Shown piece by piece: positions 38,290-46,825 of a stretch of DNA of 64,000 nucleotides. The first letter of the stretch is position 1. Each line of letters opens with the position of its first letter. The notes beneath the pieces are model-generated. The model saw only the letters and a program-made list of their open reading frames with translations. It was not told where the DNA came from and did no database searches. This DNA is from Austwickia sp. TVS 96-490-7B (GTDB lineage: Bacteria > Actinomycetota > Actinomycetes > Actinomycetales > Dermatophilaceae): positions 186,001 to 250,000 of the forward strand of contig NZ_JAHPZL010000008.1 in the NCBI RefSeq assembly GCF_019331795.1. Direction: 5' to 3'. Position numbers and translations under genes: made by a program.

Positions 38290-38326
38290 GGGTGCTCTCC
38301 AGGGGTGAGGCCTGACGCGGATTTAC

Positions 38327-38347
38327 TAATGCTGATACTGAGCATAA
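38327..38347 (-). promoter_or_regulatory. palindromic candidate NAD-regulator operator upstream of nadA
   Basis: A 21-bp imperfect palindrome, arms TAATGCT and AGCATAA with matching inner A/T positions, in the nadA promoter region. A Nudix-wHTH regulator of the NrtR/NadQ type is encoded about 8.5 kb away (46826-47767), which makes this a reasonable operator candidate. Confidence 0.5.
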
Positions 38348-38402
38348 CCCCAGTGGGGGTGACGTCAACTCAACCGCTCCGCCCGGCACGTAATCTGCCC
38401 TC

Positions 38403-39191
38403 GTGACCCCCTCCACTTCCGCCGCAGCCCACACCCTCCTATGTGCCACCGGCCCTGACGACCGCGCTCGCGGCCTCGACGTACTCCGCGCTCACCTGGA
38501 GGAATGGTCGACACATGATCGCCGAGACTTAGGTGCCGCCCTGATCGACGAACTCCATCAGGCGCCGCTCACTGCCGTCCGCAGCAGCGCAGCGCTCGCG
38601 CTCACCCACCTGGCCCGATATGGCACCTGGGATGACGGGTGGACTGAATCTGTGCTGCGTTGGTGGACTCGCGAAGACGATCTGCGTAGTTTCGACCCTC
38701 AGGACGGGTGGATCCACGCTGTCGTGCGCGGCGCTGATCTCATCGGCGCTCTCGCGCTGGCTCGTCAAGCCTCCGCGGCACGTCTCTTAGGCGCCTGCAC
38801 CAGGCGACTCATCGCTCCTACTGAATTCGTGTGGCTTGATGGCGAAGACGAACATATCGCTTACGCCATAGTCTGCGCTCTCAACAGCGAGAACGCTGAC
38901 CATGCAGACCCTACTGCCGGAGGGATCGACCCCACCCAGCTGGCCTGGCTCGGCCCACTCGTCACCTATCTCCATCGCAGCGCCGACGAGCCCTCAGATC
39001 CATGCCGCGCCAATACCCTGCACACCCTGCGATGCCTGACCATGCTGCTCGATGTGGATCGACCCGTGGCCGGAGCTACCCGCACACCTGCGCACTCAGC
39101 GCACATCCGCTCCACTGTCCTCGCAGTCCTGACCAGTGCTTCTCCATATCTGTGGAGCCTCGACTCATGGCAGCACCTGCCACGCATGTAG
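38403..39191 (+). CDS. DUF2785 domain-containing protein
   Basis: A 262-residue helical protein. SFDPQDGWIHAVVRGADLIG (near residue 98) is the DUF2785 signature (normally GWxHxxAHGAD); here the second His of the usual AHGAD is Arg (VRGAD). The remainder consists of amphipathic helices, in line with an ARM/HEAT-like fold. Function unknown. It is divergent from nadA with about 110 bp between them, so the palindrome at 38327-38347 could also affect this gene. A hairpin overlaps its 3' end. Confidence 0.72.
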   Translation: MTPSTSAAAHTLLCATGPDDRARGLDVLRAHLEEWSTHDRRDLGAALIDELHQAPLTAVRSSAALALTHLARYGTWDDGWTESVLRWWTREDDLRSFDPQDGWIHAVVRGADLIGALALARQASAARLLGACTRRLIAPTEFVWLDGEDEHIAYAIVCALNSENADHADPTAGGIDPTQLAWLGPLVTYLHRSADEPSDPCRANTLHTLRCLTMLLDVDRPVAGATRTPAHSAHIRSTVLAVLTSASPYLWSLDSWQHLPRM

Positions 39192-39209
39192 CCATCACGG
39201 CAGGTGCTG
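39171..39209 (+). terminator. terminator hairpin overlapping the end of the DUF2785 gene
   Basis: Perfect 11-bp inverted repeat CAGCACCTGCC / GGCAGGTGCTG with a 17-base loop that includes the stop codon. Confidence 0.6.
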
Positions 39210-39789
39210 TTCCACGGTCGTCTCTATCTCTGACGTTTGACTGCACCCGCCCGGTTGTGCTGTGAAAAAGCTGGATTCTTTCAGCTAACGACCGTTCAGT
39301 AAATGGACGCCATCTCCTATTCCTGGCGTAGGGTAAAATCCTCGTGGATTCGCTTATGGTTCAAGCCTTTTCGAGAAGCTGGTGACCTCCAGGTGGAGTG
39401 CTTAAACTGCCACTTTCCCAGGAAACTCCAAGGATAGGCGCCATCTGGATTCCGGCATTGCAATCGGAAAAGCACCCGCCAAGCCCAGATTTATGTCATG
39501 CTCTGCCTGTAGCCCCAATAACGGATATCGGCGTCACGTCGGTAACGGAGGTGAAGGGGAGGCTTGAGCAATGGCTGCCTCGACGGCTTAGATGAGGCCT
39601 CCATTAGAGGTCGGAGTACGCATATGGCAAAGTCCAGATATGTTCCAGTGAAGCCATCTCATATACGGGATGTGTGCATCATTGATGACCTCAAAATAAG
39701 CTAAGAAAATAATCGATGACCAGAGTTGCACTTTCACCAAGTGTCGCAAGGGGGTCATCTTCATTTAGTTTAATAGCAAGAAAGGCTGA
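39210..39789. other. AT-rich gap without a supportable gene
   Basis: About 580 bp that are clearly AT-richer than the flanking housekeeping DNA and mark the left edge of the foreign-looking exporter module. Only very short frames occur, such as a 26-codon one from 39624, with no recognisable product. I saw no terminal repeats or transposase fragment. Confidence 0.5.
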
Positions 39790-40617
39790 ATGTTGCACAT
39801 TTCCTTCGATGGTGTTGTTAAATCGTACAATCATTTTCAGCTCGGACCCATCGATTTATCCATTGCAGAAAACAGCATTACTGGTTTGGTGGGAGTCAAT
39901 GGCGCCGGAAAGACGACTCTCATCAAACTTGCGCTTGGCTTGACACGAGCATCTTCCGGAACAGTAACGAAATGTCATTCCGACGAGGTCGGAGTCGTAT
40001 ATGACACTCCTAAGTATAGTAAAGATTGGAGGGTCCGTGAGGTTTCTAAAGCACTTCGAAGATTTTATCCAACCTGGGATCAGCAACAATTCGATATCAC
40101 TGTCGATTGGGCGCGTATAGATCAGTCAAAGAAAATTAAGGAACTATCGCGGGGGATGGGTATGAAATTGCAGCTTGCAGTCGCATTCGCCCACGATGCA
40201 AGGTTTCTGATCCTCGATGAGCCGACTTCGGGGCTCGATCCGTTAGCGCGCCACGAAATTTTACACATGATAGCTGATTTCTCGAAGATTCAGGGACACT
40301 CCGTTCTTTTCTCCAGTCACATCAGCTCGGATTTAGAAAAATTCGCAGACGATATCATCATGCTTCATGAAGGAAAGTTGGTCTTCTCAGGTCAAACCTG
40401 CAATTTACTGAGTGACTATCGAATAATTTCAGGAGAATTTGATCAGCTGTCAGCAATCAAAGAATCTATTATAGGCCTACGAAAGGGACCCGCCTCATGT
40501 GAGGGCCTCATTAAACTTTCGCATACGAGTAATATTAATTTAAATTCAATTAAACTGAGGGAGCCATCGTTGGATGAGGTTGTGATTTATTTACCCCAAG
40601 GCTGCAGCGATGCTTAA
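39790..40617 (+). CDS. ABC transporter ATP-binding protein
   Basis: A 275-residue ATPase, AT-rich compared with the rest of the window. Walker A GLVGVNGAGKTTLIKL is near residue 35, the signature KELSRGMGMKLQLAVA near 118, Walker B ARFLILDEPTSGLDPLARHE near 140 and the switch His in SSHISSDLEKFADDI. The signature reads LSRGM instead of LSGGQ, as in several ABC-2 exporters of the PmtA/YhaQ type. The ATG at 39790 follows AAAGG. Its stop overlaps the permease start by 8 bp. The substrate is unknown; peptide or lipid export is likely. Confidence 0.88.
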   Translation: MLHISFDGVVKSYNHFQLGPIDLSIAENSITGLVGVNGAGKTTLIKLALGLTRASSGTVTKCHSDEVGVVYDTPKYSKDWRVREVSKALRRFYPTWDQQQFDITVDWARIDQSKKIKELSRGMGMKLQLAVAFAHDARFLILDEPTSGLDPLARHEILHMIADFSKIQGHSVLFSSHISSDLEKFADDIIMLHEGKLVFSGQTCNLLSDYRIISGEFDQLSAIKESIIGLRKGPASCEGLIKLSHTSNINLNSIKLREPSLDEVVIYLPQGCSDA

Positions 40618-41290
40618 TTCTGCGCATGACGTGAGGAGTCAGACTTTTATTTCAAACAGCACTCCGTTGAAGCGGATAGCCGCGATGGTCTTGTTGGATC
40701 TGATTACTATCCGCACTATGTCGATAGTAGCGGCAGCCATGATAGGTATATCAGCTGTAGCGACCATGGCCATCCCACTAGAAAGCACTATGCCGTTCAT
40801 GACGATGATATCAATCATCATGATCGTCAATTTATATAATATTATTGATTCAAGTGACTTGCATTTTCTTTATGGCTCCCTCCCCGTTCTCCCAAGGGAG
40901 GTTGTTGCGGCGCATTACCTCGTTGGTATTTTATCTATTGCTGCTAGCGCTTCGCCTCTTATTTTGGGGGCATGCATCGGTGGCGGGAGCAGATCAGATC
41001 TGATGAATGCTTTGTGCGCTGGGGTGGGCTCGATCTTCGTCCTATTAGCTTTGCTTCTCCCTGTTTATACTGCTTGGGGGGCTCAGCGCGGCGGAATAGT
41101 CTTTCTCTTTTCAGTTTTCCTGATCGGAATTTTTGGCTTCTACGGACCTTCCCTGCCTTTCGATGCGCCTAGCATTAACTTTAAAGAGTTATTTCAAGTC
41201 ATACCTCTCTATTTGCTGGCATTTAGCTTGCTCGTGTATTTCATCTCTTATCTGATTTCGGCGCGCATTTATGCCAGGGCAGATCACTGA
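40610..41290 (+). CDS. ABC-2 type transporter permease
   Basis: A 226-residue membrane protein with six hydrophobic segments and the stretch DLHFLYGSLPVLPREVVAAHYL (residues 83-104), typical of the ABC2_membrane_5 group that includes Staphylococcus PmtB/PmtD exporters. It overlaps the ATPase gene and shares its AT-rich composition, so the two form a unit. Whether a homodimer with the single ATPase is enough, or the small protein downstream is needed, is unknown. Confidence 0.8.
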   Translation: MLNSAHDVRSQTFISNSTPLKRIAAMVLLDLITIRTMSIVAAAMIGISAVATMAIPLESTMPFMTMISIIMIVNLYNIIDSSDLHFLYGSLPVLPREVVAAHYLVGILSIAASASPLILGACIGGGSRSDLMNALCAGVGSIFVLLALLLPVYTAWGAQRGGIVFLFSVFLIGIFGFYGPSLPFDAPSINFKELFQVIPLYLLAFSLLVYFISYLISARIYARADH

Positions 41291-41318
41291 TCCACAAGAA
41301 CTTCCACGAAAGGAATCC

Positions 41319-41483
41319 ATGAATACCACAAATAGGAAATATCTGCGGATCGTCATTGGTGTACTTTTTCTTATTGCTAGTCTCTCAACATTCTTGGGAG
41401 GGGACCGCCTATCTGGTGGCATCTTTCTCGTATCGGCTTTATTGTTATTAGGATCGTGCCTTGTGAAGCGAAAGAATGGATGA
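41319..41483 (+). CDS. small two-helix membrane protein of the exporter module
   Basis: A 54-residue protein starting NTTNRKYLRIVIG after Met, with two hydrophobic helices (IVIGVLFLIASLSTFLG and GGIFLVSALLLLGSCLV) joined by GGDRLS, and a basic end VKRKNG. GAAAGGAAT lies just upstream of the ATG at 41319. It follows the permease by 28 bp and is AT-rich too. It could be an accessory subunit or an immunity-like protein; I recognise no family. Confidence 0.6.
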   Translation: MNTTNRKYLRIVIGVLFLIASLSTFLGGDRLSGGIFLVSALLLLGSCLVKRKNG

Positions 41484-41725
41484 TAACTTCATGCCCTTAG
41501 CTTAGGAGGGTGGCATATTTACGTGCGGTATTTTTTGGCACTGGATATGCAGTGCAGCTCATCTCGTGGTGAGCAGGATGGCGACATCGCAGATAGGTAT
41601 GCGCGAAGGATTGAGGATCGACAGAGCGAATGATGCATCTCATCTGCCACTAGGTGGTCGCAGACGCCCGTCCCCTGCGCTGTACATAAGGCGGTTGGCC
41701 AGTCGGTGTCACCAGTGTCATCATA

Positions 41726-41741
41726 TCGTACATGTGTTCGA
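41726..41741 (+). promoter_or_regulatory. LexA-binding SOS box upstream of umuDC
   Basis: TCGTACATGTGTTCGA matches the actinobacterial LexA consensus (CGAAC-N4-GTTCG) except for one base (GTAC for GAAC) and sits 11 bp before the likely umuD-like start codon. It should make the pair DNA-damage inducible. Confidence 0.75.
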
Positions 41742-41752
41742 TCAACGCGGGA

Positions 41753-42088
41753 GTGACCAGCTCCTGGCCGTCCCCGGCGCAGGACTATTACCAGGGCCCC
41801 ATCAGCTTGGATGCCCGATACTTGGGGCGCCCGTCGCGTTATCTGCTGCGCTCTGAGGCACAGCTGGCCTGCGCGGGTATCGCCGCCGGTGACGTCCTCA
41901 TCGTGGATCGTGCCGTCGATCCCGGGCCGGGGATGATTCTGGTGGTGGTCGCCGACGGCGAACATCGCATTGCCCGGTTGACTCCGCATGGCACGTTGGC
42001 TGTGGACGCTGGGGTGTTGACCGCGACCGATGCGGTGCGATTTTGGGGAGTGGTGACGGCGCTGGTCCGTGACCTGCTCATCCCATGA
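41753..42088 (+). CDS. umuD: UmuD-like protein lacking the self-cleavage residues
   Basis: A 111-residue protein. It begins [20 protein letters not shown], which aligns with FPSPAADY just after the UmuD cleavage site, so there is no cleavable 24-residue arm. Aligned to E. coli UmuD, the catalytic Ser60 (GDSMIDGGI) falls on Gln37 in EAQLACAGI, and Lys97 (FTVKKL) on Ala74 in HRIARL. The fold motif [13 protein letters not shown] and the end [13 protein letters not shown] are kept. So it is likely a permanent UmuD'. I prefer the GTG at 41753; the ATG at 41732 lies inside the SOS box. It overlaps umuC by 4 bp (ATGA). Confidence 0.75.
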
Positions 42089-43350
42089 GTCAGGTCGTTG
42101 CTCTCATCGACGTGGAATCGATGTATGCCTCCTGTGAGCGGGTCGTCGATCCCGCCTTGATGGGTCGGCCTGTCGTGGTGCTTTCTAACAACGACGGCTG
42201 CGTGATCGCTCGGTCGAGGGAAGCCAAAGAGTGTGGGGTCGCGATGGGTGCGCCCTGGTTTCAGGTGCGCGACGATCCACGTTTTCAGCAAGTCGTGGCT
42301 AAGTCCAGCAATTACGAGCTGTACGGCGACTTGTCGGCGCGTTTCGTCACCACTGTCACTTCCCTCGCTGCTGACGTCGAGGTGTATTCCATCGATGAAG
42401 TTTTCCTATCGCTGCCGGCAGCCCGGGCAGAGCAAATCGTCAATGACATCGCGCATCGGGTCTACCAGTGGGTGGGCTTGCCGGTGACCTGTGGGATCGG
42501 TACGACGAAAACGCTGGCTAAAGTAGCTCAACGCCTGGCCAAACGTGACCCAAATCCGCCCCATGTCGGCAATCTTGCCGGGCATTCTCCTGCCCAGATC
42601 GGTGATGTTCTTGCCGCGACACCAGTAGCCGACGTCTGGGGCATCGGGTCACGCCTGGCAGCCCGGCTATGTGCGGACCGCATCGCCACCGCCGCTGATC
42701 TCGCCACCGCGGACCCGGGGTGGCTCCGGCAACGCTATTCCGTCACCGTGGAACGCACCGCTCGAGAATTAGCGGGCACCCCATGTCTGCTTGTGGGAAA
42801 TCAACCCGTCCGGCGTGCCCAAGTCATGCACACGAGAATGCTTGGCCGTCCTGTGGACACCCTCACCGACATGACAGACGTGGTCACGGTCCGGGCGAGC
42901 CAAGCAGCGACCCGATTGCGAAGCCACGGCCTGCACGCAGCGCTGCTCACGGTGATCCTGTCCGCTGGTTCCTCCCACGACAAGCACGACGTACGCCGAC
43001 GACATGACACCGCCTCTGTCCCCTTAGACCCACCCACCAACCAGACCCACGACCTGATCCGCGCTGCCCACCACGCTACAGCGACGGCCATGCCACATGG
43101 AGCTGCCTACACCCGGGTAGGTGTGCTGTTGACGGACCTCACCCCGGCCGGTGAGGCATCACCATTGTGGGGCTCACCAGGTGATATCCGGTTAGGCCGC
43201 GCAATGGACGCACTGACTGCGCGACTCGGACCCGGGGTAGTGGGGTATGGCGCGGCAGGCTTTCGACGTGTGCCCCCATGGGAGATGCGCCGTGACTTGT
43301 TGTCCGCTGCTGCGACAACCCGATGGGATCAGTTGCTCCCCACCCGTTGA
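42085..43350 (+). CDS. umuC: Y-family DNA polymerase V catalytic subunit (UmuC-like)
   Basis: A 421-residue translesion polymerase. Catalytic acids are intact: Asp in [14 protein letters not shown] (near residue 9) and DE in [12 protein letters not shown] (near 102). [19 protein letters not shown] and [14 protein letters not shown] are UmuC signatures, followed by a helix-hairpin-helix region ([15 protein letters not shown]), the little-finger domain, and a DUF4113 tail ([14 protein letters not shown], then TTRWDQLLP). It copies damaged DNA with UmuD'. Coupled to the UmuD-like gene and under the same SOS box. Confidence 0.92.
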
Positions 43351-43476
43351 GACCAACCCACGTGAGGTCATCACGATCGACATCACCCAGACCGCAGCCG
43401 CGACCTGGCGCTACGAATATCACAGGACCTGCGCTAGCCTCACATATCTGTTTGCGCCGTTCATCACGGCAGCGCA

Positions 43477-44151
43477 TCAAATCGTCAGGGCATTCGGTTT
43501 ACGGGCCAAAAGGGCATGGGTGAGGGACGACGTGTCAAGGTCGTAGATCGCGTGCGACTCGATGCGGAGACCCTTCTGATGCACAACCTGTTCCCAGGTA
43601 GCGGCGGAACGTTTATTAACGTGGACGTGCATGGGGTGACCTCCGTACCCCTGGGTTTTCACGCTGTGTGTAGCGCCGATGTGGCCGCCGAGCAACAACA
43701 CACCGCCAGGGGTCAGTATCCGCGCAAGCTCACTGACGGCACGCCCGAGTTCTGCATCGGGCAGGTGATGGAGGACGTACATGCAGCACACCCCATCTGC
43801 CGACTCCGACGGCACAGGAATATCCAGAACGGACCCCATTTCGAAACGCGCCTGCGGCACATTCTCACGCGCGATGTCGATCATGACTGGAGACAGGTCA
43901 ACACCCATCACCTGTACCCCGCGCGCAGCGAGGAATTGAGTCCACCACCCGGGCCCGCAGCCGATGTCGACGATCGTGGCGACACCATCGGAAATGGTGC
44001 GTGCCGCTAACTCAGTGAGCATGGCGTAATCACCAGCCATAGCGGCATTGTCCATCGGAGCAGAACGTGTCATCTGCGCGTAAGACTGTGCGACACGGTC
44101 GTAGGACTCCCGGGCCAACATCTGCCAATCAGCGTTCATCGGAGTCGTCAC
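43477..44151 (-). CDS. class I SAM-dependent methyltransferase
   Basis: A 224-residue UbiE/Ubie-like small-molecule methyltransferase. Motif I ATIVDIGCGPGWWTQFL is near residue 60, VMGVDLSPVMIDIAREN near 83, and MYVLHHLPDAELGRAV near 125. The target cannot be read from the sequence. It overlaps the end of the MFS gene by 23 bp, so the two are translated as a unit; an ATG four codons later would shorten the overlap. The pairing of a methyltransferase with an exporter suggests modification and export of one compound. Confidence 0.82.
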   Translation of the reverse strand: MTTPMNADWQMLARESYDRVAQSYAQMTRSAPMDNAAMAGDYAMLTELAARTISDGVATIVDIGCGPGWWTQFLAARGVQVMGVDLSPVMIDIARENVPQARFEMGSVLDIPVPSESADGVCCMYVLHHLPDAELGRAVSELARILTPGGVLLLGGHIGATHSVKTQGYGGHPMHVHVNKRSAATWEQVVHQKGLRIESHAIYDLDTSSLTHALLARKPNALTI

Positions 44152-45379
44152 GGTGAGGTTCTCCGGCTTGTGCGAGGTGACCGAGCTGACGCCAGATCAC
44201 CACAAGCAAGGGGAAGTTGCCAGCTACGGCACACCAATACACGGCTGTGATGCCGAACTGGCGAGCAATGACACCACCTAACATCCCGCCGACCACCAGC
44301 CCCAGATAGACCCCCATCATGGTCACACTGCCGACACGACCCAGCAGGTGGTGAGGGGTCAGAGCTTGTCGCACCGTCATCGATGTCGTCCCCCACAGGA
44401 ATGCTTCAACGCCAAACGCGAACATCGCCACATACGCCACCAGGGGCGTCGTGGTGAGCGCGCAGGTCATGTGGACGAGCGTCTCGGTGACGAGAGCTGC
44501 TCGCATGAGCGTGGCATAGGACACACGCCGAGTGACCGCCCCGAAAGTGAGGATCGCCACGACTCCGCCGACGGCGCCGGCTGAGGTGAGCAGACCGAAT
44601 CCCACCTCGTCGAGGCCTAGTCGTTGGCTCGCCCACACGACAGTGACGGATGCGGTGGCGCCGTACGTGATGTTGAACAGAGTGACGGTGAGCACCAGCG
44701 TGCGCACCGGGCCGTTGCCAGCGAGCCAACGTAATCCTTCGACAACGTCATGGCGCAGCGCGGCACTGGAACGCGTCTCTTCCGTGACATGCCGGACTGT
44801 CATCCGTGAAATGAGAGCGGCGCCCGCAGCGAAACAGACGGCGTTAGCAACGAATGGCCAGGCTGCTCCCACCGCGAAAAGGAACGCGCCGACGGGCGGC
44901 CCGAAGAGCTGGTTGCCTCCGACGTACGTCGCCATCATCCGCGGTTGAGCGACCCCGATGTGTTCGGCTGGAACAGTGCTGGGAAGTAAGGTCTGCCCAG
45001 CGACGTCAGCGAATGCCTCCGCGACACCAAGGAGGCTGATCAACGCCAGCACCAGCCCGATTGTCATTGTGCCGGTGGCAACAAGCGCTCCCATACACAT
45101 CAGCACCGCAGCACGCGTCAGGTCGACGATGATCACGAGGCGTTGACGGTTGACGCGGTCAATATAGGCCCCGACACCTAGTCCGAGTAGCAGAATAGGT
45201 AGCCGTTGCAGCACCGGGGCTAGCGCGATCAAGAATGGATCCCGGGTCAGCGACGCCAATAGCAATGGTCCAGCGGCGAGGAGCATGCCGTCACCGAACT
45301 GGTTGAGGGAGCTCGCGGCGATGAGGGCACGGAAGGAACCTCCGAGCCGGTGCGGCAGAGCGGCTTCGAGGAAGTTCAC
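44129..45379 (-). CDS. MFS transporter (efflux, EntS/Mef-like)
   Basis: About 416 residues with 12 hydrophobic segments. The N-terminal FRALIAASSLNQFGDGMLLAAG and the loop GVGAYIDRVNRQRLVIIVDL (the MFS motif A position) place it in the MFS_3 efflux group near enterobactin exporter EntS and macrolide MefA. I start it at the GTG at 45379, next to the first helix; frames reaching 45640 add about 87 residues without homology and overlap the divergent gene. Substrate unknown. Confidence 0.82.
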   Translation of the reverse strand: MNFLEAALPHRLGGSFRALIAASSLNQFGDGMLLAAGPLLLASLTRDPFLIALAPVLQRLPILLLGLGVGAYIDRVNRQRLVIIVDLTRAAVLMCMGALVATGTMTIGLVLALISLLGVAEAFADVAGQTLLPSTVPAEHIGVAQPRMMATYVGGNQLFGPPVGAFLFAVGAAWPFVANAVCFAAGAALISRMTVRHVTEETRSSAALRHDVVEGLRWLAGNGPVRTLVLTVTLFNITYGATASVTVVWASQRLGLDEVGFGLLTSAGAVGGVVAILTFGAVTRRVSYATLMRAALVTETLVHMTCALTTTPLVAYVAMFAFGVEAFLWGTTSMTVRQALTPHHLLGRVGSVTMMGVYLGLVVGGMLGGVIARQFGITAVYWCAVAGNFPLLVVIWRQLGHLAQAGEPHRDDSDER

Positions 45380-45425
45380 CCGCGCGAGTCTACGTGGAGC
45401 GAGTTCCCCCGCTGCGTGTTGATTT

Positions 45426-45863
45426 ATGACCAGAATGGGTCGGGTGATGACCTGGCGTGGGCCTGCGGTGGCGGTGATCGCCACGACTTTAGCGACATCA
45501 CTGGTGTTGCTCACGGCCCACCAAGGGAGCGCCGATCGGATCCTCTCCGAGGTAAAACGCGATCCGTCATCGGTGTCCCTTTCGGGGCCTGTCAACGGTT
45601 CGTCCGGCACCGTTGTCTGCCCGTACGCCGATACAGACAAATTGTCATCATTGCGTCAGTCGCGGCTTGTGGGGGCAGGTGTTGACACGGGCGTGATGGA
45701 CGAGGGCATCCAATGGATTGTGTACGACGATGAGAATGTGGATCCCATTCGGCTGGAACGTCATGAGGTTGATCTGTGCCAGGTCGGCGGCCTGGTCGAA
45801 TTTACCGCCCACACTAGATTCGCTACTGAAAAGCCTCAAGAGCAATCTGGTCAGCCCAGATAG
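45426..45863 (+). CDS. hypothetical protein with N-terminal signal anchor
   Basis: A 145-residue protein I do not recognise. A basic start and a hydrophobic stretch (GPAVAVIATTLATSLVLLTA, residues about 12-31) look like a signal anchor or signal peptide without a lipobox; the rest is soluble and outside, with two cysteines (VVCPYADTD and VDLCQVGG) that could pair. ATGs at 45426, 45435 and 45447 are all possible starts. It is divergent from the MFS gene by about 46 bp and convergent with a lipoprotein gene. Confidence 0.5.
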   Translation: MTRMGRVMTWRGPAVAVIATTLATSLVLLTAHQGSADRILSEVKRDPSSVSLSGPVNGSSGTVVCPYADTDKLSSLRQSRLVGAGVDTGVMDEGIQWIVYDDENVDPIRLERHEVDLCQVGGLVEFTAHTRFATEKPQEQSGQPR

Positions 45864-45964
45864 GTGCTCACCGAAAAAAGTGATTCGATGATGTCTTAGC
45901 GCGATATCCCGGCGTCGATGACGGGAGGCTGGGGTGGCTATTGCTAGAGGTGCACATCGCTCTT

Positions 45965-46819
45965 TCATGAGCTCGAAACGCCGCTATACATCCATATTCG
46001 AGAAGCAGTTAACGAGCATGCATCTCTATTCTGTGCTGTGCTAAACAAGATATTTTTGCTGTAGTGGCAGCCAGTCCTCTTCTCAACTAATGACCTATGA
46101 TGGGCGAGTTCAAGGTTATCGATCGATCCAGATAGATGCAAGGCAATTGTGGCGCGCGCCAGATCAATCGTAGGCATATCAGTAAGATCTAAGCTACTTT
46201 TAATAGACTCAAGAGAATCTTGATTTAAGTCGACAATTTCTTGAAAATTATGAAGAGGAACCGGATTTGAAAGTATTGCAATGAGAGCGCGCTTCTCTTC
46301 GTCAGTCTTAGCTAATTTTTTTGCCAGCGAGGCCGGGATCTTCATTCCAGATAGGTAATACGCAAGTGAACTCACCTCTGACCAATCCTGAGCGTCCTTA
46401 AAATTCATATTTTCCCACTTTTTCTTTCGTATCGCAGCGAGGATTTCGCCTTGATCCCTTTCGGTGAGAGAATGCGCCGCACGCAGAGAGACTGCTGCCA
46501 TCATTTTCTGTTGTAAAGTAATTTTCGGATCATCATAGATTCGCCTCAGTGAGCTGACTGTTTTGTTGTTGATGATTTTTATGAAATCTTGTTCGATGAG
46601 GAGTGAAACTTCATAGGTTGCCAAGAGGTTACCTGGCTCGCCATCCCCACTTTCGGGATCCGCGAAGAGGCCTGTCCCGGTATCGATGAGTTGCGATAAA
46701 TCCGATACCAGCGAGGGAGGGTAGGGTCTGTCTTTAATAAGGGGACCAGTGCTGCAGCTGGCGGTGAAGATGCTGAGGGCTAAGGCAGAGCAGATCGCGG
46801 ACTTATATGTCGCTACCAT
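45965..46819 (-). CDS. AT-rich putative lipoprotein of unknown function
   Basis: A 284-residue protein. The N-terminus is a lipoprotein signal: a short basic start, a hydrophobic core SAICSALALSIF and a lipobox TASC. After that come Lys/Asp/Ile-rich helices with no family I recognise. Base use is far more AT-rich than both neighbours, which suggests horizontal transfer. Its start lies only about 6 bp after the stop of the Nudix-wHTH regulator on the same strand, so it could be read as the last gene of that operon. An in-frame GTG at 46822 is an alternative start. Confidence 0.6.
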   Translation of the reverse strand: MVATYKSAICSALALSIFTASCSTGPLIKDRPYPPSLVSDLSQLIDTGTGLFADPESGDGEPGNLLATYEVSLLIEQDFIKIINNKTVSSLRRIYDDPKITLQQKMMAAVSLRAAHSLTERDQGEILAAIRKKKWENMNFKDAQDWSEVSSLAYYLSGMKIPASLAKKLAKTDEEKRALIAILSNPVPLHNFQEIVDLNQDSLESIKSSLDLTDMPTIDLARATIALHLSGSIDNLELAHHRSLVEKRTGCHYSKNILFSTAQNRDACSLTASRIWMYSGVSSS

Positions 46820-46825
46820 CACAGT

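Follow-up and report, generated by a model that had tools for sequence, protein, structure and literature searches.

A UmuD'-like protein without N-terminal arm or Ser-Lys dyad, encoded beside umuC on an Austwickia chromosome

Self-cleavage of UmuD is the textbook delay on mutagenic repair after damage. In E. coli, removal of the N-terminal arm converts UmuD to UmuD', the form found in Pol V (UmuD'2C). Pol V needs RecA and ATP also after cleavage (PMC6511836), and the C-terminus of UmuC is the UmuD' binding site (PMC11791011). In the model described there, one UmuD' subunit places its N-terminal arm in UmuC close to the active site, its partner pairs with the UmuC tail, and a UmuD' without this inner arm fails to support mutagenesis (PMC11791011). 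A naturally short relative is known from phage P1, where HumD is described as an already activated, shorter UmuD (PMC7092418). The sequence of P1 HumD starts with MGFPSPAADY, an annotated LexA site lies 19 bases upstream, and alignment shows that both Ser and Lys are retained; no umuC is annotated next to the gene. In gp26 of phage N15 the Ser position is taken by Thr. Viral contigs yielded 66 distinct relatives of UmuD, many of them HumD-like: 46 had Ser/Lys, 13 Thr/Lys, six Thr/Met and one Asn/Cys (L172, whose Ser column is a gap in our larger alignment of 167 open reading frames (ORFs)). The twelve HumD-like rows in our UmuD tree form a single clade (98/84). An S24-fold protein without canonical active site has likewise been reported in the CI repressor of phage 186 (PMC12984324).

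The window, by which we mean the whole stretch of 64,000 nucleotides of Austwickia sp. TVS 96-490-7B that was analysed, contains a umuD'-like gene at positions 41753-42088 of the plus strand, with a GTG start and 111 codons. Like HumD of P1 and gp26 of N15 (NF051876), its product starts at the cleavage site (MGFPSPA.DY in the phage proteins) and has a one-residue deletion before the position of the catalytic Ser; its C-terminal loop is also short in a 16-row alignment that includes HumD. In P1 and in the window a LexA site, annotated in the former and a candidate in the latter, lies just upstream. Unlike P1 HumD, however, the window protein has Gln and Ala in place of Ser and Lys, is followed by its own umuC, and is chromosomal in an actinobacterium. 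It resembles 186 CI in having no canonical active site, but the latter is a repressor and not a polymerase subunit. The natively short UmuD is thus an already known kind, as P1 HumD testifies, to which the window adds a umuC-linked, chromosomal and dyad-less case.

The reading frame that ends at 42088 is open from 41690, where an upstream stop closes it, and holds only two start codons (ATG, GTG or TTG) before the core, namely ATG at 41732-41734, which would add seven residues, and GTG at 41753. Since the ATG sits inside the LexA-like box, the sequence favours the GTG, although the start itself is not proven. Whichever start is used, the protein lacks the 24-residue arm, as the first-pass annotation had claimed, and it has no Cys/Ala-Gly cleavage pair either, the old cleavage site reading Ser-Ser. 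The conserved N-terminal motif of UmuD', here PSPAQDYY (41768-41791, located by alignment with homologues), is present, PSPAQDY and the core are retained in the 16-row alignment, and the protein ends in RDLLIP. Gln37 (CAG, 41861-41863) occupies the column of Ser60 and Ala74 (GCC, 41972-41974) that of Lys97. These placements, proposed in the same annotation, recur in three alignments: phmmer against PDB chain 8gmt (UmuD bound to RecA), MAFFT of 61 ORFs including the window's own, and MAFFT of the 16 rows with HumD. A shift of register that would rescue the dyad can be ruled out, because the translation contains no lysine at all.

It could be argued that the arm was removed by a frameshift or an assembly error, the more so as the assembly is a draft of 58 contigs. 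We regard this as very improbable: no arm-like sequence was found upstream of the core in any frame, the upstream DNA instead carries the LexA-like box, and Gln and Ala codons within a smooth alignment are not expected from a single frameshift. The frame also has the properties of coding DNA, with GC contents of 0.705, 0.518 and 0.759 at the three codon positions, and its codon score of 0.258 lies inside the range of twelve resident reference genes (0.112-0.282), compared with 0.089 and -0.083 for the two other frames. By these measures the frame uses codons as a genuine gene does. The umuC gene downstream scores 0.077, under the range of the resident genes.

An AlphaFold model of the short protein, built on a 33-row alignment, reached a mean pLDDT of 84.3, with 58 over the first ten residues. 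Foldseek of this model against the PDB returned E. coli UmuD' as the top match (E 1.8e-6), and VIA-align against E. coli UmuD' gave a Z of 12.4 and an rmsd of 3.7 over 96 residues, so that the predicted model has the S24/LexA C-terminal fold. Family scores are low. The Pfam S24 score is 18.2 (cut-off 23.3), the best NCBIfam model is HumD (NF051876) at 58.5 bits (cut-off 120), and the second is self-cleaving UmuD (NF007621) at 51.0 bits (cut-off 110); by NCBIfam score the protein belongs to neither. In the searches made we met no homologue above about 50% identity.

The adjoining umuC gene (42085-43350, plus strand, 421 aa) overlaps its neighbour by ATGA at 42085-42088, which joins the TGA stop of umuD to the ATG of umuC. 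It encodes a Y-family polymerase with IMS (Pfam, 2.2e-31), IMS_C and DUF4113 domains, for which the best NCBIfam model is UmuC (PRK03609) at 309.6 bits, under the cut-off of 431, and the best DNA polymerase IV model yields 130.6 bits. The catalytic acids are in place (LIDVES, YSIDE), in agreement with what had been noted at first reading, as is the YASCE motif, and the C-terminal tail resembles the tails of relatives. The beta-clamp site is degenerate, ASPLW compared with QLNLF in E. coli, and is so too in the nearest UmuC relatives (IQPLW, NPGLH). Besides UmuC, the host genome encodes one further Y-family polymerase.

The LexA (SOS) box candidate, TCGTACATGTGTTCGA (41726-41741, plus strand), ends 11 bases 5' of the GTG and differs at one position from TCGAAC-N4-GTTCGA, the actinobacterial LexA box consensus. 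It is the only site in the window with at most one mismatch. At two mismatches or fewer the window has three sites where 3.3 are expected, and the weight of the candidate therefore rests on its position and its single mismatch. In the host genome 18 places match with at most one mismatch, compared with eight for the reversed pattern; one of the 18, TCGAACATCAGTACGA, stands about 160 bases 5' of the probable start of lexA and shares its variant half-site with the umuD box. Host LexA retains Ser, Lys and the Ala-Gly pair, and was the only gene found by a Pfam S24 search of the host genome. The locus resembles E. coli umuDC in predicted fold, operon order, UmuC motifs and a candidate SOS-type box, and differs from it in the absence of the arm, the Cys-Gly pair, Ser60 and Lys97.

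We consider the best explanation, with a probability of roughly 0.7, to be that a natively short UmuD' and the adjoining UmuC make up a Pol V-like translesion polymerase under LexA control that would operate without self-cleavage. The anatomy of the operon is directly visible; binding, activity and regulation, including the dimer, the complex and the SOS response of the pair, are inferred. Besides the anatomy, the HumD precedent and the dyad losses beside umuC in other lineages speak for this reading, whereas the low family scores of the small subunit, its short C-terminal loop, the degenerate clamp site of UmuC and the low codon score of umuC speak against it. According to this explanation, cleavage of LexA would turn the operon on, and the small subunit would be made as UmuD', ready on translation. 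RecA-stimulated self-cleavage would not be needed by this subunit, given that the protein has lost the arm, the cleavage pair and the dyad. PSPAQDYY would insert into UmuC in the manner modelled for the arm of E. coli UmuD', with the tail of UmuC pairing with the UmuD' dimer; it is the retention of this inner arm and of the tail that leads us to read the protein as a ready UmuD'. RecA would probably still be required for the final activation. The first-pass annotation had proposed that only SOS induction of transcription may be needed and cleavage skipped. Skipping remains the best reading of a protein that has neither arm nor cleavage pair, no Ser at the site and no Lys, but keeps the N-terminal motif intact, with umuC overlapping its gene and a LexA-type box in front. 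A requirement for transcription only goes beyond the sequence, since Pol V depends on RecA and ATP even once cleavage has taken place (PMC6511836).

The loss of cleavage could also have the opposite consequence, if the protein bound UmuC (or DinB) and restrained it as an uncleavable manager in the way of full-length E. coli UmuD. In E. coli the uncleavable variant UmuD S60A lowers UV-induced mutagenesis (PMC3901139), and Micrococcaceae-type genes with Ala/Arg or Gly/Arg at the two columns, discussed below, have room for an arm. The window protein is nevertheless armless, and removal of the arm is precisely what converts UmuD to UmuD'; moreover, armless HumD is described as already activated (PMC7092418). 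A restraining role is consequently quite unlikely here.

Among plasmid records the nearest UmuC proteins are those of Prauserella marina (46%) and Mycobacterium intracellulare (45%), and the UmuC tree, built from 68 rows and 414 columns, places the window next to Prauserella as its sister (99/91) within one group that also includes three mycobacterial plasmid genes (100/97). In all four of these plasmid umuDC pairs (L188, L181, L231, L232) the UmuD has both dyad residues, Ser and Lys, as well as an Ala-Gly pair, all of which the window UmuD lacks. The loss of the dyad is accordingly derived on the window's own branch, provided that umuD and umuC have travelled together. The two genes might have different histories, as the UmuD tree leaves the window unplaced, in none of the starred sets. 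It had been stated at the outset that homologues with normal residues at these columns would speak against the loss; the closest UmuC relatives are indeed normal, but this does not refute the loss and instead marks it as having arisen on the window's branch, with separate losses in other lineages.

The operon lies in a genome island of 8.5 kb (38290-46825) between nadA and a conserved gene for a 313-aa protein near hrcA, which comprises umuDC, an ABC transporter and genes for a methyltransferase, an MFS protein and a lipoprotein. The island is absent from two congeners (G001 and G002), in which about 150 and 140 bases, respectively, separate the end of the nadA match from the 313-aa gene, and at this place a third genome (G003) carries a different stretch of 2.8 kb; eight island genes gave no matches in the 20-kb stretches of these three genomes (tblastn, E 1e-5). 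The ABC transporter genes (39790-41483) and the lipoprotein gene (45965-46822) have 44-46% GC, lower than the about 60-66% of the other genes measured, and the island for this reason looks layered. Of 396 genomes searched in the order, 36 had a match to the window UmuD (E 0.001), a count that includes its own genome and a few weak matches that are possibly LexA, and none of the other genomes matched belongs to the host's own family; among 58 relatives four were matched, its own included. UmuC was matched in three of 186 family genomes, its own and two weak ones at 34% identity, and the class-wide figure of three in 394 is a lower bound with only four candidates scored per genome. Genome contigs were scanned with exact peptides, and in viral contigs exact peptide patterns, a narrow test, disclosed no close kin of the pair.

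Such a setting invites the suspicion that umuD is decaying, having lost arm and dyad under relaxed selection after the island arrived, and that UmuC acts alone or is inactive. The weak family-model scores, the variable island and the long terminal branch that leads to the window in each tree (0.60 for UmuC, 0.82 for UmuD) all point that way. We nevertheless judge decay to be unlikely, as the frame is intact with a coding-like pattern, PSPAQDY and the core are preserved, the ATGA overlap and the box are in place, and other umuC-linked lineages lose the dyad yet keep the remainder of the protein.

The extent of such losses was assessed in 167 homologous UmuD ORFs, a non-random sample in which near-copies were included and queries were partly chosen for dyad-less forms (one of two UmuD ORFs of L033 was dropped before the counts, and a chance minus-strand ORF, L107, stayed in the tally). 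A umuC lay within 400 bases downstream in 88 of the 167, of which 66 carry the Ser-Lys dyad. The 22 changed rows comprise the window (Gln/Ala), eight from Acetobacteraceae, one from Parvibaculaceae, ten of Micrococcaceae type, one from Bifidobacteriaceae and one from Pantoea. The eight Acetobacteraceae plasmid genes (L180, L192-L198) read Ala/Ala in three cases and once each Ala/Cys, Ala/Gly, Thr/Ala, Ser/Ala and Gly/Cys, and the Parvibaculaceae relative (L030) reads Ala/Ala. In these S24-UmuC pairs, as in the window, umuC follows a gene with a changed dyad. Residues annotated before Pro29 number 13-17 in six of the eight, and 25 and 48 in the other two, compared with 28 in E. coli; the old cleavage site of the Acetobacteraceae/Parvibaculaceae group is Thr-Gly or Ser-Gly. 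Within the Acetobacteraceae the former catalytic columns drift (Ala, Ser, Thr or Gly at Ser; Ala, Cys or Gly at Lys) and the remainder is kept, a pattern that would be expected if cleavage were no longer under selection. The ten Micrococcaceae-type genes, of which two belong to named Arthrobacter and the other eight, found in genomes of a single family, group with those two, have Ala/Arg, Gly/Arg or Ser/Arg and room for an arm, their starts not being proven; the Bifidobacteriaceae gene has Ala/Arg. Ser/Arg forms were counted as changed and not as dead, as slow cleavage may persist in them.

For the UmuC tree, segments of less than 300 aa and identical ones were dropped, which reduced 88 pairs to 84 rows, and removal of 19 near-copies and addition of three rows (L231-L233, whose labels were set by hand and agree with their sequences) gave the 68 chosen rows. 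On this tree the dyad state changes seven times, six of which are forced by well supported branches, in the Acetobacteraceae and kin, the Micrococcaceae-type genes, the Bifidobacteriaceae genome, Pantoea and the window; each column alone, Ser or Lys, also changes seven times. The UmuD tree, which is weak (E. coli and 64 ORFs selected from the 167, over 112 columns), gives fewer, with four changes, three of them forced, for changed rows outside HumD. Approximately unbiased (AU) tests rejected a union of the window with the alphaproteobacterial rows as a shared loss (p 9.8e-6), so that the Acetobacteraceae/Parvibaculaceae loss is separate from that of the window, as well as its union with every changed row of actinobacterial origin (p 2.1e-5); one clade holding all 22 changed rows was rejected narrowly (p 0.0435). 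The tree cannot separate gain from loss, and we infer Ser-Lys to be the ancestral state from LexA and the other family members.

The cleavage residue, Ala or Cys before Gly, is present in 42 of 46 Ser-Lys rows (one of the four exceptions is a gap) and in two of the 22 changed rows. However, the corresponding Fisher p of 2.5e-11 ignores kinship, and among independent tree pairs the same direction was found in 4.5 of six on average, never the opposite, with a median sign-test p of 0.0625; the link between cleavage residue and dyad loss is therefore only suggestive. A more general hypothesis, which we regard as evenly balanced between true and false, is that a cleavage-free Pol V is a recurrent state. 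Chromosomal and plasmid umuDC would then have lost the dyad repeatedly, mostly with the cleavage residue and in certain lineages with the arm, leaving SOS mutagenesis to LexA and activated RecA alone, and the window would be one of at least six changes beside umuC, with the HumD clade apart.

Natural operons without self-cleavage would provide a test of what the delay is for, and of whether LexA control and RecA activation suffice. Dyad-less UmuD proteins are easily missed because of sub-cut-off scores and generic labels: the three umuC-linked ones that were scored (window, Acidiphilium and Pantoea) all fell under the NCBIfam cut-offs for UmuD and HumD, and the plasmid genes carry the annotation S24 family peptidase or hypothetical protein. 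A literature search confined to open-licence papers found none on a dyad-less UmuD beside umuC. On a Pseudomonas nitroreducens plasmid (L201, 1535-1963) an Ala/Ala UmuD relative with room for an arm is followed by a site-specific integrase and has no umuC annotated beside it. The changed gene on a Pantoea alfalfae plasmid (L200) reads Cys/Arg, with the Cys adjoining an alignment gap, and its annotated start coincides with the cleavage site. On this plasmid (1-3252) an annotated normal umuDC stands back to back with the armless Cys/Arg umuD'C, and the two offer a natural pair for comparing the normal and armless forms.
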